Positions 2,984-27,922 of a stretch of 64,000 nt of DNA are shown here, piece by piece (the first letter of the stretch is position 1; each line of letters opens with the position of its first letter). The stretch covers positions 2,170,001 to 2,234,000 of the forward strand of contig NZ_CP096034.1 in assembly GCF_023115465.1 (NCBI RefSeq), written 5' to 3'. Under the pieces are notes generated by a model. It was not told the origin of the DNA. It made no database searches and was given only the letters and a program-made list of their open reading frames with translations. A program made the position numbers and the translations under genes. Source of the stretch: Gottfriedia acidiceleris (GTDB lineage Bacteria; Bacillota; Bacilli; Bacillales; Bacillaceae_G).

Positions 2984-3490
2984 ATGACTAAATTTACTAC
3001 TGAACATAAATTAGCGGTAGTTATGCGTTATTTAGAAGGTAAGGAAAGTTTTCGTTCTATTGGTAAGTTATTTGGAACGTCCCATGCTGAAGTGAGAAAC
3101 TGGGTAGCTCAATATAAGGAAAATGGGATTAATGGCTTGCTTAAAAAGTCATATACAAGTTATTCGGTACAGTTTAAACTAAACGTATTAAAGTATATGA
3201 ATGACCACGGGACGTCACCGAATGAAGCAGCTGCAATTTTCAATATTCCTTCCCCTAGAACGATTCGAAAATGGAGGACTCAATTTGAAACACAAGGACA
3301 AGACGCCCTAGAATCAAAGAAAAAGGGGCGACTTTCCATGAAAAAAGAAACAAAGAAAACTACACCCGTTGAAGGATCAATTGAAGAACTTCAAGCTGAA
3401 ATAGAACGTTTACGCATGGAAAATGCATATCTAAAAAAGTTGAATGCCTTAGTTCAAAACAAGGAAAAATCACGAAACAAGACAAAGTAA
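2984..3490 (+). CDS. IS3-family transposase OrfA (helix-turn-helix protein)
   Basis: A 168-residue protein with two N-terminal helix-turn-helix units (about residues 5-55 and 60-105) and a C-terminal coiled coil (IEELQAEIERLRMENAYLKK), the usual OrfA layout for terminal repeat binding and dimerisation. At 3433-3439 the heptamer A AAA AAG lies in frame (Leu-Lys-Lys codons CTA AAA AAG), the canonical -1 slippage site of IS3 elements. Slippage there joins this frame to the OrfB frame, which is open from 3439. The start ATG follows GGAGGTG. Confidence 0.92.
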   Translation: MTKFTTEHKLAVVMRYLEGKESFRSIGKLFGTSHAEVRNWVAQYKENGINGLLKKSYTSYSVQFKLNVLKYMNDHGTSPNEAAAIFNIPSPRTIRKWRTQFETQGQDALESKKKGRLSMKKETKKTTPVEGSIEELQAEIERLRMENAYLKKLNALVQNKEKSRNKTK

Positions 3491-4335
3491 AAGTTGTCTA
3501 TGAATTAAGGCATGAGTTTTCGTTAAAAGAACTTCTACTGCTAGCCAGTATTCCGCGTAGTACGTTTTATTATTGGATGAAAAATCTAGAACGTCCTGAT
3601 CCAGACGCAGAGTTAAAAGTGCTGATAAAAGAAATTTATGAGGAACACGAATTTCGTTATGGCTATCGTAAAATTCGAGACGAGCTTACGAATCGTGGTT
3701 ATAAAGTAAATCATAAAAAAGTTCAACGACTTATGAAAGAACTAGGGATAAAATCACTTGTGAAGGTAAAGAAATATCGCTCTTACAAAGGTGAAGTAGG
3801 TAAGATTGCACCCAATATTTTAAATCGAAATTTTCAAGCTGAAAAACCAAATGAGAAATGGGTTACAGATATAACTGAATTTAAATTATTTGGAGAAAAG
3901 CTATACTTCTCACCTATGTTGGACTTATATAATGGTGAAATAATTGCTTATACAATTGGTTCACGTCCAACTTTTTCACTTGTATCAAATATGTTAGAAC
4001 AATCTCTTGAACGATTAACAGATTCCGATACACTACTAATTCATTCAGACCAAGGGTGGCACTATCAAATGAAAAAATATCGTAGTGCTCTTATTAAACG
4101 TGGAATCACTCAGAGTATGTCACGAAAAGGAAACTGTTACGATAACGCAGTAATTGAAAGTTTCTTTAGTATCATGAAATCTGAACTACTCTATCTTAAA
4201 GAATTTAACAGTGTCGAACACTTTAAACAAGAACTAGCTAAATATATAGATTACTACAATAACAAACGAATTAAGGCAAAATTAAAAGGCATGAGCCCAG
4301 TAAAATACCGAGTTCATGCCCAACAGGCTGCCTAA
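3439..4335 (+). CDS. IS3-family transposase OrfB, DDE catalytic domain, expressed by -1 frameshift
   Basis: The frame is open from the slippage heptamer at 3433-3439 (reading VECLSSKQGKITKQDK) to the stop at 4335, so the functional product is the OrfAB fusion starting at 2984. The ATG at 3577 is internal. The region has an HTH_21-type segment (GYRKIRDEL) and an rve integrase core with the DDE triad visible in WVTDITEF, LIHSDQGWHYQ and NAVIESFFS. No stop or frameshift damages the domain, so the element is probably competent for transposition. Confidence 0.92.
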   Translation, partial: VECLSSKQGKITKQDKVKVVYELRHEFSLKELLLLASIPRSTFYYWMKNLERPDPDAELKVLIKEIYEEHEFRYGYRKIRDELTNRGYKVNHKKVQRLMKELGIKSLVKVKKYRSYKGEVGKIAPNILNRNFQAEKPNEKWVTDITEFKLFGEKLYFSPMLDLYNGEIIAYTIGSRPTFSLVSNMLEQSLERLTDSDTLLIHSDQGWHYQMKKYRSALIKRGITQSMSRKGNCYDNAVIESFFSIMKSELLYLKEFNSVEHFKQELAKYIDYYNNKRIKAKLKGMSPVKYRVHAQQAA

Positions 4336-5189: not shown

Positions 5190-5762
5190 ATGAAAAAGAT
5201 TATTGAACTAATAGAACAAATAGATTTAGATAAAAAAATATTATTAGATGATATACCTAATCTTGATCTATATATGGATCAAGTAATCCAATTATTTGAT
5301 AATAAATTTGCAAAACCGAATTCTAATGAAAAAGTAATGACAAAAACAATGATTAATAATTACGCAAAAGCTAAATTACTATTCCCAATAAAAAATAAGA
5401 AATACACAAAGAATCACATTATATTAATCAGTTTAATTTATCATTTGAAGGGTGCTCTTTCGATTAATGATATAAAAGAAACCTTAAATGGGTTAAATCA
5501 AAGAATCCTTGAAAACAATGAAATAAATATTGATGTTATTTATTCAAGTTTTTTACATTTAAATGAACTAAACCTCGAAAAGTTTAAAACGGAACTTCAA
5601 CAATCTGGTGAAAATGTAAACAAAGAAATTGAACAGATTGATGATGCGAGTAAAGAATATATCGAGCAATTGCTCTTAATTACTTCTTTCGTTAATATGA
5701 GTAATTTATATAAAAATGCAGCTGAAAAATTAGTAATGGATCTGATTGAGAAGCAGAAATAA
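5190..5762 (+). CDS. DUF1836 domain protein
   Basis: A 190-residue soluble, charged, helical protein. The central part (MTKTMINNYAKAKLLFP followed by KNHIILISLIYHLKGALSINDIKETL) has the look of the DUF1836 family, which resembles a MerR-type winged helix with an initial recognition helix and a wing. The ribosome binding site AAGAGGA precedes the ATG. It is transcribed divergently from the HlyIII gene, with a promoter-sized gap of 141 bp between the starts. A DNA-binding role is an inference from the HTH-like pattern; no target is evident. Confidence 0.65.
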   Translation: MKKIIELIEQIDLDKKILLDDIPNLDLYMDQVIQLFDNKFAKPNSNEKVMTKTMINNYAKAKLLFPIKNKKYTKNHIILISLIYHLKGALSINDIKETLNGLNQRILENNEINIDVIYSSFLHLNELNLEKFKTELQQSGENVNKEIEQIDDASKEYIEQLLLITSFVNMSNLYKNAAEKLVMDLIEKQK

Positions 5763-6040
5763 AATATATTTTGGAGCTTTGTCGATGGGGAGGGGCTAAT
5801 TCGTTTATTTGGACATATCCAATACAGTGGCCCGCCTTATGTTTAGATAAAATGTACGAGGCATTAAAGTATTATTGATGGAATTGAACTCTTCATTTCA
5901 AGTAATTAGCAGAAATATATAGTCTTTTTATTCATTCTAGAAAGGTTTAGAGTATATTTGCTAGTTTTTCACTTGAAATTACTCACGATTGTAGATTCTA
6001 TCGGACGTAATACCCTAATTGGTATAGGTAATTAATTATT

Positions 6041-6250
6041 TTATTTACTATTCTTTTTAATTTAATTGTAGAATAACAACTTTTATTTGCTTTTTTCTTA
6101 AATTTAATTGCAGTTTAACCATTTTTAATTGCGATTTTTAGATATTAATTGCAGTACACTTTTATTTGCACAGATAGAATCACTATTTGCAGTTATCCAG
6201 CACTTAATTGCAGTTCTCAAGACATTATTTACACACTTTATCTGCAGTTC
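6041..6250 (+). repeat. Array of degenerate 21-bp-period repeats, core TTAATTGCAGTT / TTATTTGCA
   Basis: Eleven copies of a short core start at 6041, 6062, 6083, 6104, 6125, 6145, 6162, 6183, 6204, 6225 and 6238. Seven of the ten intervals are exactly 21 bp; the others are 20, 17 and 13. The core alternates between TTAATTGCAG and TTATTTGCA forms, while the remaining 9-12 bases of each unit differ. No open frame runs through it. It lies in a 602-bp gene-free stretch (5763-6364) between the DUF1836 gene and ogt; the rest of that stretch (5763-6040) shows nothing I recognise. Confidence 0.8.
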
Positions 6251-6364
6251 ATTCTAAAATATTTATCAAATTCTTGCTCTTTCATTCTAATATCAGTCCA
6301 TTTTTCTTAATTAAGTCTATAATAAAATTTACATAAGACCATGAAGAGCAAAGGGTGATTTAAA

Positions 6365-6877
6365 ATGCATTCAACTGAAAAATTATATTGGACTTTAATT
6401 GAATATAAAGACTGGAAGATTCACATTGCTGCAACAGTAAAAGGGCTATGTTTCGTAGGCTCACAATGTGGAACCATTCAAGAATTACTTTTATTTAAGG
6501 ATAAATACTTTCCTAGAATTGAAATGATAGAAGATGAAATAATATTAGAAGCTTATAAAAAAGAGATAATTGAATTTTTAGAGGGCGAGCGGACTAATTT
6601 TAAAAGTAGACTTGATTTTCGTGGTACAGCTTTTCAAAATTCAGTTTGGAATGCCCTATGCTCCATCGGTTATGGAGAAACGAAAACTTATTCCGATATT
6701 GCAAGTTACCTAAATAAGCCAAAATCTATTCGAGCAGTCGGGAGAGCAATTGGTGCAAATCCATTATTGATTATAATTCCTTGTCATCGTGTCCTTGGAA
6801 AGGATGGCTCATTAACTGGCTATCGTGGTGGTTTAGAAATGAAGAAAAGCCTTTTAAAAATTGAAACTAGAAACTAA
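6365..6877 (+). CDS. ogt: Methylated-DNA--[protein]-cysteine S-methyltransferase
   Basis: A suicide DNA repair protein that moves the alkyl group from O6-alkylguanine to its own cysteine. The 170-residue length is normal for Ogt/MGMT. The C-terminal domain has the helix-turn-helix segment (FQNSVWNALCSIGYGETKTYSDIA, RAVGRAIGANP) and the active-site motif PCHRVLG at about residues 138-144, with the acceptor Cys intact, followed by LTGYRGGLEMKKSLL. The N-terminal domain is short and divergent, as usual. The start follows AAAGGGTG. It sits alone, downstream of the 21-bp repeat array and upstream of a terminator hairpin. Confidence 0.95.
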   Translation: MHSTEKLYWTLIEYKDWKIHIAATVKGLCFVGSQCGTIQELLLFKDKYFPRIEMIEDEIILEAYKKEIIEFLEGERTNFKSRLDFRGTAFQNSVWNALCSIGYGETKTYSDIASYLNKPKSIRAVGRAIGANPLLIIIPCHRVLGKDGSLTGYRGGLEMKKSLLKIETRN

Positions 6878-26515: not shown

Positions 26516-27922
26516 TTGGCTAAACAACAAATAGGCGTAATCGGTTTAGCAGTAATGGGAAAAAACCTAGCTTTAAATATTGAAAGTAGAGGTTTCTCAA
26601 TTTCTGTATATAACCGTTCAGTTGAAAAAACAGAAGAATTTTTAAAAGAAGCAGAAGGTAAAAATGTAGTTGGAACATTTTCAATTGAAGAATTTGTAAA
26701 TTCTCTTGAAACACCTAGAAAAATATTAATAATGGTAAAAGCAGGTGGCCCAACTGATTCAACAATTGAAATGTTATTACCTCATCTTGATAAAGGTGAT
26801 ATTTTAATTGATGGTGGAAATACATATTATAAAGACACTCAAAGACGAAATAAAATGCTATCTGATAGCGGAATTCATTTTATTGGAACAGGTGTTTCAG
26901 GTGGAGAAGAGGGAGCTTTAAAAGGACCTTCAATTATGCCTGGTGGACAAAAAGAAGCATTTGAACTAGTAAAGCCTATTTTTGAAGCGATTGCTGCAAA
27001 AGTAAATAATGAGCCATGTACAACATATATTGGTCCAGATGGTGCTGGTCATTATGTAAAAATGGTTCATAATGGAATTGAATATGGAGATATGCAATTA
27101 ATCTCAGAAGCTTACTTTTTATTAAAAAATGTACTTGGCTTAACTGCTGACGAATTGCACCATGTATTTAGTGATTGGAATAAGGGTGAACTTGATAGCT
27201 ATTTAATTGAAATTACTGCCGATATCTTTACTAAAACAGACGAAGTAACAGGTAAACCACTTGTAGATGTTATTTTAGATAAAGCAGGACAAAAAGGTAC
27301 AGGAAAATGGACTAGTCAAAGCACGCTAGATTTAGGCGTTCCTACTTCTATTATTACTGAGTCTGTATTTGCACGATTTATTTCTGCAATGAAGGATGAA
27401 AGAGTAAAAGCAAGTAAATTATTATCTGGTCCATCAACTAGTACATATAATGGTGATAAAGAGCAACTTATTGAAGATGTGCGTAAGGCTCTTTATATGA
27501 GTAAAATTTGTTCATATGCTCAAGGATTTGCTCAATTAAGAGCTGCATCTGATGAGTATAACTGGGATTTACAATATGGTGATATTGCAATGATTTTCAG
27601 AGGTGGATGTATTATTCGAGCGGCTTTCTTACAAAAAATTAAAGAAGCTTACGATTTAGATGCTAATCTATCTAACCTATTACTTGATCCATATTTCAAA
27701 GAAATCGTAGAAAGCTACCAAGGTGCTTTACGAAAAATAAGCGTAGTAGCAATTGAAGCTGGTGTACCAATTCCATGTTTCTCTGCTGCTTTAGCTTATT
27801 TTGATAGCTACCGCACAGAAACACTTCCTGCAAATTTAATCCAAGCACAAAGAGATTATTTTGGTGCGCATACTTATGAACGAATCGATAAAGAAGGTAC
27901 GTACCATACTCAGTGGACATAA
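26516..27922 (+). CDS. gndA: 6-phosphogluconate dehydrogenase, decarboxylating, long form
   Basis: A 468-residue standard 6-phosphogluconate dehydrogenase, producing ribulose 5-phosphate, CO2 and NADPH. Visible are the dinucleotide motif [63 protein letters not shown], the catalytic [15 protein letters not shown] (about residue 183) and the C-terminal tail ending [20 protein letters not shown]. It starts with TTG after GAAAGGAC. It converges on the second zwf, and an insertion sequence now lies between the two. The strain also has a short-form enzyme at 12375. Confidence 0.95.

Follow-up and report, generated by a model that had tools for sequence, protein, structure and literature searches.

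The locus between the DUF1836 gene and ogt

The window, that is the whole stretch of DNA analysed here, covers 64,000 nucleotides at positions 2,170,001–2,234,000 of a 4.69-Mb single-contig Gottfriedia genome; unless stated otherwise, coordinates refer to it. A set of short direct repeats, hereafter the array, lies between a gene for a DUF1836 protein and ogt (Table 1). It starts 279 bp beyond the stop codon of the former and ends about 120 bp before the start codon of the latter. The genes beside it were assigned by family search to DUF1836, ogt, HlyIII and DUF445. At 2984–4335, two adjoining reading frames encode HTH and integrase (rve) domains, an arrangement that we take to be typical of IS3-type elements.

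Table 1. Features of the element at ogt and of the two flanking genes (window coordinates).
Feature	Position	Strand	Basis and remarks
DUF1836 protein gene	5190..5762	+	Pfam PF08876, E 2e-32; its stop codon precedes the element
Terminator-like hairpin stretch	5790..5840	+	GGGGC...GGCCC stem in the predicted fold of 5763–6045; between the DUF1836 gene and the leader
Conserved leader	5860..6039	+	Sequence model match, 100.6 bits; this copy is among the 16 used to build the model
Palindromic leader end, AATACCCTAATTGGTATAGGTA (ATACC-N6-GGTAT)	6009..6030	+	Read from the sequence; just before the array
5′ sub-array	6041..6161	+	Cores at 6041, 6062, 6083, 6104, 6125 and 6145; steps 21, 21, 21, 21 and 20, then one of 17 bp
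3′ sub-array	6162..6246	+	Cores at 6162, 6183, 6204, 6225 and 6238; steps 21, 21, 21 and 13; cores as far as 6225 also recovered by the array caller
ogt, O6-methylguanine-DNA methyltransferase gene	6365..6877	+	Pfam PF01035, E 2.5e-32; TIGR00589

A sequence-only reading of the stretch had listed eleven cores, with seven intervals of exactly 21 bp and no coding frame running through them. The cores were recovered at the same positions, ten of the 11 matching TTAWTTGCA with at most one mismatch and the first (6041) with two. The measured steps, in order 21, 21, 21, 21, 20, 17, 21, 21, 21 and 13 bp, contain the seven intervals, and in the ORF listing of the window no frame of 60 residues or more overlaps the array. 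Autocorrelation, which that reading had proposed as a check, gave a self-identity of 0.416 for 6001–6300 at lag 21, against 0.319 (s.d. 0.025), a value reached by none of 1000 dinucleotide shuffles; at lag 42 it was 0.415, reached by one of 1000. As the maximum over all shuffles at lags 5–69 was 0.437, above the observed 0.416, the periodicity of this single locus stands out only at the lags of 21 and 42 named beforehand. TRF reported 6039–6156 as a 42-bp repeat with a score of 125.

A dispersed family of arrays

The pattern TTWWTTGCAG-N11-TTWWTTGCA has 19 matches in the genome of the window and none when reversed. When one mismatch was allowed and the final G was not required, the counts were 75 and 3. 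An array caller demanding at least three cores found 105 arrays in the stretches read, at least 24 of them in this genome, and none in the same sequences reversed. These genome-wide pattern counts against reversed controls are the decisive support for the reality of the array. The array at ogt is almost certainly one copy of a dispersed family, with many loci in its own genome, in nine of the 13 congeneric genomes and in several other genera. A dispersed repeat family was among the options left by the sequence-only reading, and the search of the genome and its relatives that it had suggested thus settled on that option.

The strict pattern occurs in 10 of 60 genomes, the present one included: nine of the 13 Gottfriedia genomes, and one genome elsewhere with a single match. 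A scan of named genomes added Gracilibacillus, Metabacillus and Bacillus sp. NTK034. Pairs of TTATTTGC at 20–21 bp are present at least once in 51 of 397 genomes of the order, many of them with just one match; one or two matches to the reversed pattern turn up in some genomes as well. The genomes rich in such pairs outside the genus are G279 (81), G281 (38), G357 (29), G276 (16) and G353 (16). A three-core pattern was found in four of 398 genomes of the class: that of the window and G456 (91 matches), G613 (one) and G715 (one), these three belonging to one family outside the order. The distribution is wide but patchy.

Region 6030–6260 was unmatched in 72,556 plasmid records. The single virus-contig match, to a near-perfect 21-bp repeat, was dismissed as unrelated on inspection by eye. 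The same judgement was passed on four of the 35 stretches from named genomes (Bacteroidales, cyanobacterial, Planctomycetaceae and uncultured bacterium), which are near-perfect tandem repeats with other linkers and were kept out of the counts. A pair of TTATTTGC with the spacer CCAATTTGTGC, or nearly so, recurs in four species (G000:C1:3657685, G002:C1:2581473, G005:C23:254409 and G011:C2:37563); this may be a chance match of the pattern to a conserved coding sequence. Literature searches, mostly at title level, retrieved no description of such arrays.

Core, linker and step

The constant part in every lineage read is TTATTTGC, accompanied in Gottfriedia by TTAATTGC, which is carried by 44 percent of the distinct 21-bp units of that genus. 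Linkers are specific to genome and locus, with a loose consensus that is T-rich at +10 to +13. Among 384 pairs of neighbouring exact cores within 70 bp at array loci, 330 are 20–21 bp apart. The others lie at 17–19 (10), 22 (4), 37–44 (26) and 57–64 bp (10), with none at 8–16, one at 23–36 and three elsewhere; eight control stretches of the window's genome contain no core pair within 70 bp. Because spacing-aware patterns were used to find the loci, selection partly accounts for the absence of other spacings. When double steps of 38/39 bp are counted, 24 of 51 Gottfriedia arrays contain a 17- or 18-bp step, and therefore not all cores lie on one face of the DNA. Some other genera use a step of 20. 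Helical phasing of the arrays is approximate.

Three statements of the sequence-only reading are touched by these data. That only the core is conserved was correct in outline and too strict in detail, as the linker is loosely T-rich and a conserved leader precedes the array. The contrast drawn with a satellite made by slippage was upheld, since octamer and step are common to many loci and genera while linkers differ. The proposed geometry, with bound proteins on a single DNA face, is plausible and agrees only roughly with the steps: most are 20 or 21 bp, but those of 17 and 18 bp turn the face, and 20 is the step in some other genera.

Leader, terminal palindrome and hairpin

The sequences upstream of different arrays are related to one another. 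Sixteen of them were aligned to build a sequence-only model of a leader of about 180 bp, ending in a palindrome of the general form AATACCTTAACTGGTATGGGTA. This palindrome is the best-conserved block of the alignment and also precedes other arrays. The model finds at least 21 copies in the genome of the window and at least 227 in nine of the 13 Gottfriedia genomes, with 11–38 copies per genome as lower bounds. The remaining four (G001, G004, G009 and G011) gave no match and also lack the strict array pattern, so that over 13 genomes leader and array either co-occur or are both missing; G011 has one match with a looser array pattern. The element consists, in order, of the leader, the terminal palindrome and a run of TTAWTTGC cores spaced by about two helical turns and often divided into two parts.

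Each of the 29 leader loci inspected leads directly into at least three cores, 26 of them with a 17/18-bp step. They belong to the 30 best-scoring of the at least 227, the thirtieth being the ogt locus of G007, which was read with the other ogt loci; as seven had been used to build the model, 22 are independent. In 43 stretches of the window's genome, the model gave 11 matches and a weak one (E 0.02). The weak one, a partial match within the window at 27142–27217 (13.4 bits), is perhaps due to chance. The best match in 34 stretches from other genera, a search that left out four G279 stretches (L180–L183), reached only E 0.25.

At a second locus, described below, a hairpin GGGGCTGTCTC...GGGTGCCCTTTTTTT arrives with the element, while other species have a plain terminator there. 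By extension, the hairpin at 5790..5840 would belong to the element at the ogt locus.

Placement relative to genes

Gene calls for this comparison were based on the longest ORF, with ORFs shorter than 160 residues running through arrays set aside. The 92 array-bearing intergenic gaps, a count that includes copies of the same genome, comprise 36 convergent, 52 tandem and 4 divergent gaps, against 27, 116 and 77 among 220 array-free gaps of at least 150 bp taken from the same stretches. Convergent gaps are enriched (Fisher p = 3e-7) and divergent gaps depleted (p = 9e-10). In two of the four divergent cases, one neighbour is an inserted IS gene. In 35 of 46 tandem cases the array is closer to the upstream stop, at a median distance of 93 bp versus 210 bp to the next start; the copy at ogt is among the exceptions, being nearer the downstream start. 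Six of the 105 called arrays overlap a called ORF, and none of the 24 in the window's genome does once ORFs shorter than 160 residues through arrays are set aside; two ORFs of 92 and 81 residues run through arrays there. Overall, arrays are scarce at divergent promoters, frequent at convergent gene ends and close to stop codons.

Orientation relative to replication

The local GC skew served as guide to the direction of replication. Collapsing the 105 arrays to 93 and removing nine same-genome copies left 84, of which 61 have the core on the lagging-strand side and 15 on the other side, 8 being undecided. Gene direction and replication direction are correlated. Convergent gaps, whose genes give no direction, hold 21 lagging and 4 leading arrays, with 5 undecided. 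Among 43 tandem contexts with a usable GC skew, 33 have the array antisense to its flanking genes. The copy at ogt has the less common orientation and is sense relative to its neighbours.

In G279, the minus strand carries the ten sites up to 1.78 Mb and the plus strand the six past 3.13 Mb. The exception is an array at 1.38 Mb on the plus strand, at the eighth IS copy, so that 16 of 17 obey, in a list that counts IS-split arrays once and was made with a pattern that misses mixed TTAATTGC arrays. In the genome of the window, arrays without leader or palindrome are all on the lagging side (14/14), against 2 of 10 with either, a division made partly by eye as regards the palindrome. By the leader model alone, 4 of 11 leader loci have the common orientation and 7 the opposite one, against 14 and 2 of the 16 other called arrays. 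Given the opposite leader-type arrays and the exception in G279, no single polar function fits every copy.

Turnover between species

The ogt gene was found in 11 of the 13 Gottfriedia genomes, G003 and G010 yielding only a more distant homologue. Four of these 11 loci carry the array (G000, G006, G007 and G012), two a remnant (G005 and G011) and five neither (G001, G002, G004, G008 and G009). An ogt-proximal block, TCTTGCTCTTTCATTCTAATA, is retained in G002 and G008, both without the array. A link to ogt, upstream of which the sequence-only reading had placed the array, is not supported by this comparison: seven of the 11 loci read have either no array or a remnant.

The second locus is a convergent gap. 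Leader and array are both present in G006, G007, G010 and G003; the element is partly lost in G000 (leader) and G012 (array), and G011 has a remnant only. G005, G008 and G002 are without it and have a plain CCCC..GGGG terminator instead. In all, the element is absent or eroded in six of ten genomes. Where the element stands in G006 and G007, G002 has its plain terminator followed by about 830 bp of other sequence (G002:C1:228004-228834, L256). Inspection of the loci by eye revealed neither a target-site duplication nor a terminal repeat or linked enzyme. The differences in presence at the two loci indicate that copies come and go, and that the neighbouring genes do not need these copies in every species.

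Insertion sequences

G279 holds eight copies of a gene for a 391-residue IS256-family transposase, and all eight lie inside arrays, in both orientations (L178–L183, L185 and L258). Six have called arrays on both sides; L185 and L258 are flanked by an array on one side only, the opposite side having single degenerate units. Seven of the eight are flanked by an 8-bp duplication derived from the T-run of a unit plus the core, such as TTTTATTT or AAATAAAA, and no clean duplication is seen at L185. G279 thereby adds a case of an insertion sequence homing to intergenic repeats that are not palindromic. The IS200/IS605 (Y1-type) transposase family PF01797 does not track the arrays: it was not found in the array-rich G002, G006 and G007, and is present in the array-free G011 and G004. 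Mobilisation by a RAYT was rejected on this ground.

Comparison with known repeat systems

The available text of one source describes REP/BIME elements as extragenic, regularly spaced clusters in many copies, species-specific and reported to bind several proteins, with suggested roles in chromosome organisation and transcription termination (PMC2817692). REP elements are also targets of specific insertion sequences, according to the accessible part of another (PMC1525189). The arrays are likewise extragenic, multicopy clusters of short repeats, and the preference of one insertion sequence for them, in all eight IS256-family copies of G279, is a close parallel. In contrast to REP/BIME, TTAWTTGCAG lacks palindromic symmetry and all units of an array occupy one strand rather than alternating, no tracking by an IS200/IS605-related (RAYT, Y1-type) transposase was seen within the genus, the step is 20–21 bp, and a long leader precedes many Gottfriedia arrays. 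With alternating palindromes and Y1 tracking both failing, the arrays were not filed as REP/BIME; by analogy, they would nevertheless work most like a BIME.

The nearest direct-repeat case met is that of the TAACTGA repeats of Beggiatoaceae, Cyanobacteria and Bacteroidetes, dispersed direct repeats with a short fixed core in distant lineages, for which a binding protein is only proposed in the text available (PMC4679880). The present arrays share with them the dispersal and the short fixed core of a direct repeat. In the main genome of that report, as far as the same text goes, the repeats mostly precede putative start codons at short distance, and a role in translation was suggested (PMC4679880). 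The present arrays, which have another core and spacing, mostly lie past stop codons and seldom in divergent gaps.

In plasmid iterons and ParR/centromere arrays, direct repeats spaced by about 20–22 bp each bind one protein; a plasmid iteron origin has direct repeats of about 17–22 bp and an adjoining replication or partition gene. The architecture of direct repeats with a step of 20–21 bp is shared. Unlike these systems, the arrays are chromosomal and dispersed in tens of copies, and the flanking genes here are DUF1836 and ogt, neither of which serves replication or partition. CRISPR arrays consist of near-identical repeats with unique spacers between them; this identity was rejected, as only a core of 8–10 bp recurs and the linkers are short with a loose consensus.

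Interpretation

With doubt and confidence about evenly balanced, the element at ogt is read here as a dispersed non-coding extragenic element, located for the most part at 3′ ends of transcription units, with a putative core-binding protein and a boundary role. Each core would be the site of one sequence-specific DNA-binding protein. Neighbouring molecules might touch at the 20–21 bp spacing, cooperate and coat the array. The coated array could then form a boundary between transcription units, by blocking RNA polymerases that read through or approach head-on or, in an alternative form, by serving as a supercoil and chromosome-organising site. Such a role would explain why arrays follow stop codons or separate convergent genes and are scarce at divergent promoters. 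New copies may arise when leader and array are moved or copied and units are duplicated within the array, and may erode once the partner protein is lost. Binding of the core by a protein is the more secure part and is probable; a boundary function is proposed tentatively. Against both, the 17-, 18- and 13-bp steps break the single helical face, and single copies are dispensable, as expected of neutral or selfish DNA. The mixed orientation of leader-type arrays speaks against a single polar function, and the six arrays that overlap a called ORF also count against the reading.

A bolder version, which we regard as speculative and rather improbable, is a chromosome-wide, mostly replication-oriented boundary system of Bacillus-type bacteria. 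One protein would read TTAWTTGC in two-turn steps and coat the arrays at gene ends, in a manner polar to the fork or to head-on transcription, such that most arrays point toward the origin. The coated arrays would offer insertion sequences safe sites to land, and G011 would have lost the partner protein.

The strongest rival is a mobile or selfish repeat that is non-autonomous and serves no host function, an explanation of some weight that we nonetheless consider unlikely. Some enzyme would copy leader and array to new sites in the genome, arrays would lengthen or shorten as units are duplicated, and gene ends would merely tolerate insertion. The leader copy numbers of the nine bearing genomes, the differences between species at ogt and at the second locus, and the homogeneous locus-specific linkers and higher-order repeats of G279 and G281 are all consistent with it, as is G011, which has remnants at both loci and no leader match. 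It is weakened by the failure to recognise by eye any mark of transposition (target-site duplication, terminal repeat or linked enzyme) and by IS200/IS605-type transposases that do not track the arrays. The persistence of octamer and spacing over genera, against drifting linkers, calls for constraint or sequence-specific copying, and the single orientation of all 14 arrays without leader or palindrome in the window's genome also tells against it.

A role at the level of RNA or RNA polymerase appears improbable. The T-rich core strand would act as a NusG pause or Rho site, stopping antisense or read-through transcription from the far side. The motif TTNTTT is the NusG pause motif of B. subtilis and is not sufficient alone, as stated in the part of the report available (PMC12288461). 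TTATTTGC contains TTATTT and fits this motif, and the antisense orientation in tandem contexts and the position beyond gene ends agree with such a role. The units with TTAATTGC, however, break TTNTTT, and the copy at ogt is in sense orientation. A Rho-type excess of C over G is not general across lineages: on the core strand C is not consistently above G, and G357 and the Metabacillus array have G > C. For the opposite strand of the ogt array, predicted folding is weaker than in any of 200 shuffles (z +2.06), a low-folding trend present in Gottfriedia and not in the other lineages (70 arrays). The ogt leader alone folds better than its shuffles (z −2.65). A structured RNA was rejected, as Rfam gave no gathering-level match in the window (two sub-threshold ones at 5600–6500, E 1.9 and 3.5) and the alignment of 16 leaders gave no consensus RNA pair.

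An ordinary slippage minisatellite without sequence meaning is very improbable: near-perfect tandem arrays do occur in G279 and G281, but octamer and step, unlike the linker, are common to many loci and genera, the 105 called arrays have no counterpart in reversed controls, and a leader common to unrelated loci precedes many arrays; conservation of the core across genera disfavours a simple satellite as sole explanation. An operator or enhancer of ogt, such as a binding array of the adaptive response, is hardly credible and was rejected on the orthologous loci, for in spite of the short distance to the ogt start codon, five of the 11 ogt loci have no array and two a remnant against four with one, the TCTTGCTCTTTCATTCTAATA block is kept in the array-less G002 and G008, and similar arrays adjoin many other ORFs.

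A phased, orientation-biased multicopy family in Bacillus-type bacteria would make the role of dispersed extragenic repeats directly testable. The natural loss in G011 and the loci with and without the element provide natural comparisons, which could lead to a new DNA-binding protein.

Features of single lineages

Some arrays of G279 and G281 are near-perfect tandem repeats with homogeneous locus-specific linkers and higher-order repeats. A long array in G007 (L207) contains a duplicated block, and its linkers hold GCTCGAGGGCTC/GCCCGAGGGCTC. Two Metabacillus arrays have some upstream sequence in common. In Gracilibacillus oryzae (L089, L102 and L114), long runs of a related unit of about 20–21 bp, TTCTTGCGACTTCC, directly adjoin TTATTTGCAG arrays, which might reflect drift of the core or the coexistence of two core types. 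G357 has a trailer of its own, clear after three of its six arrays, weak after two and missing from one. It lies just past the last unit (L192–L196) and reads roughly ATATAAAGGCCATTCGACAA, with TTCGACA, which we take to be the complement of the Spo0A box, in four of the six.
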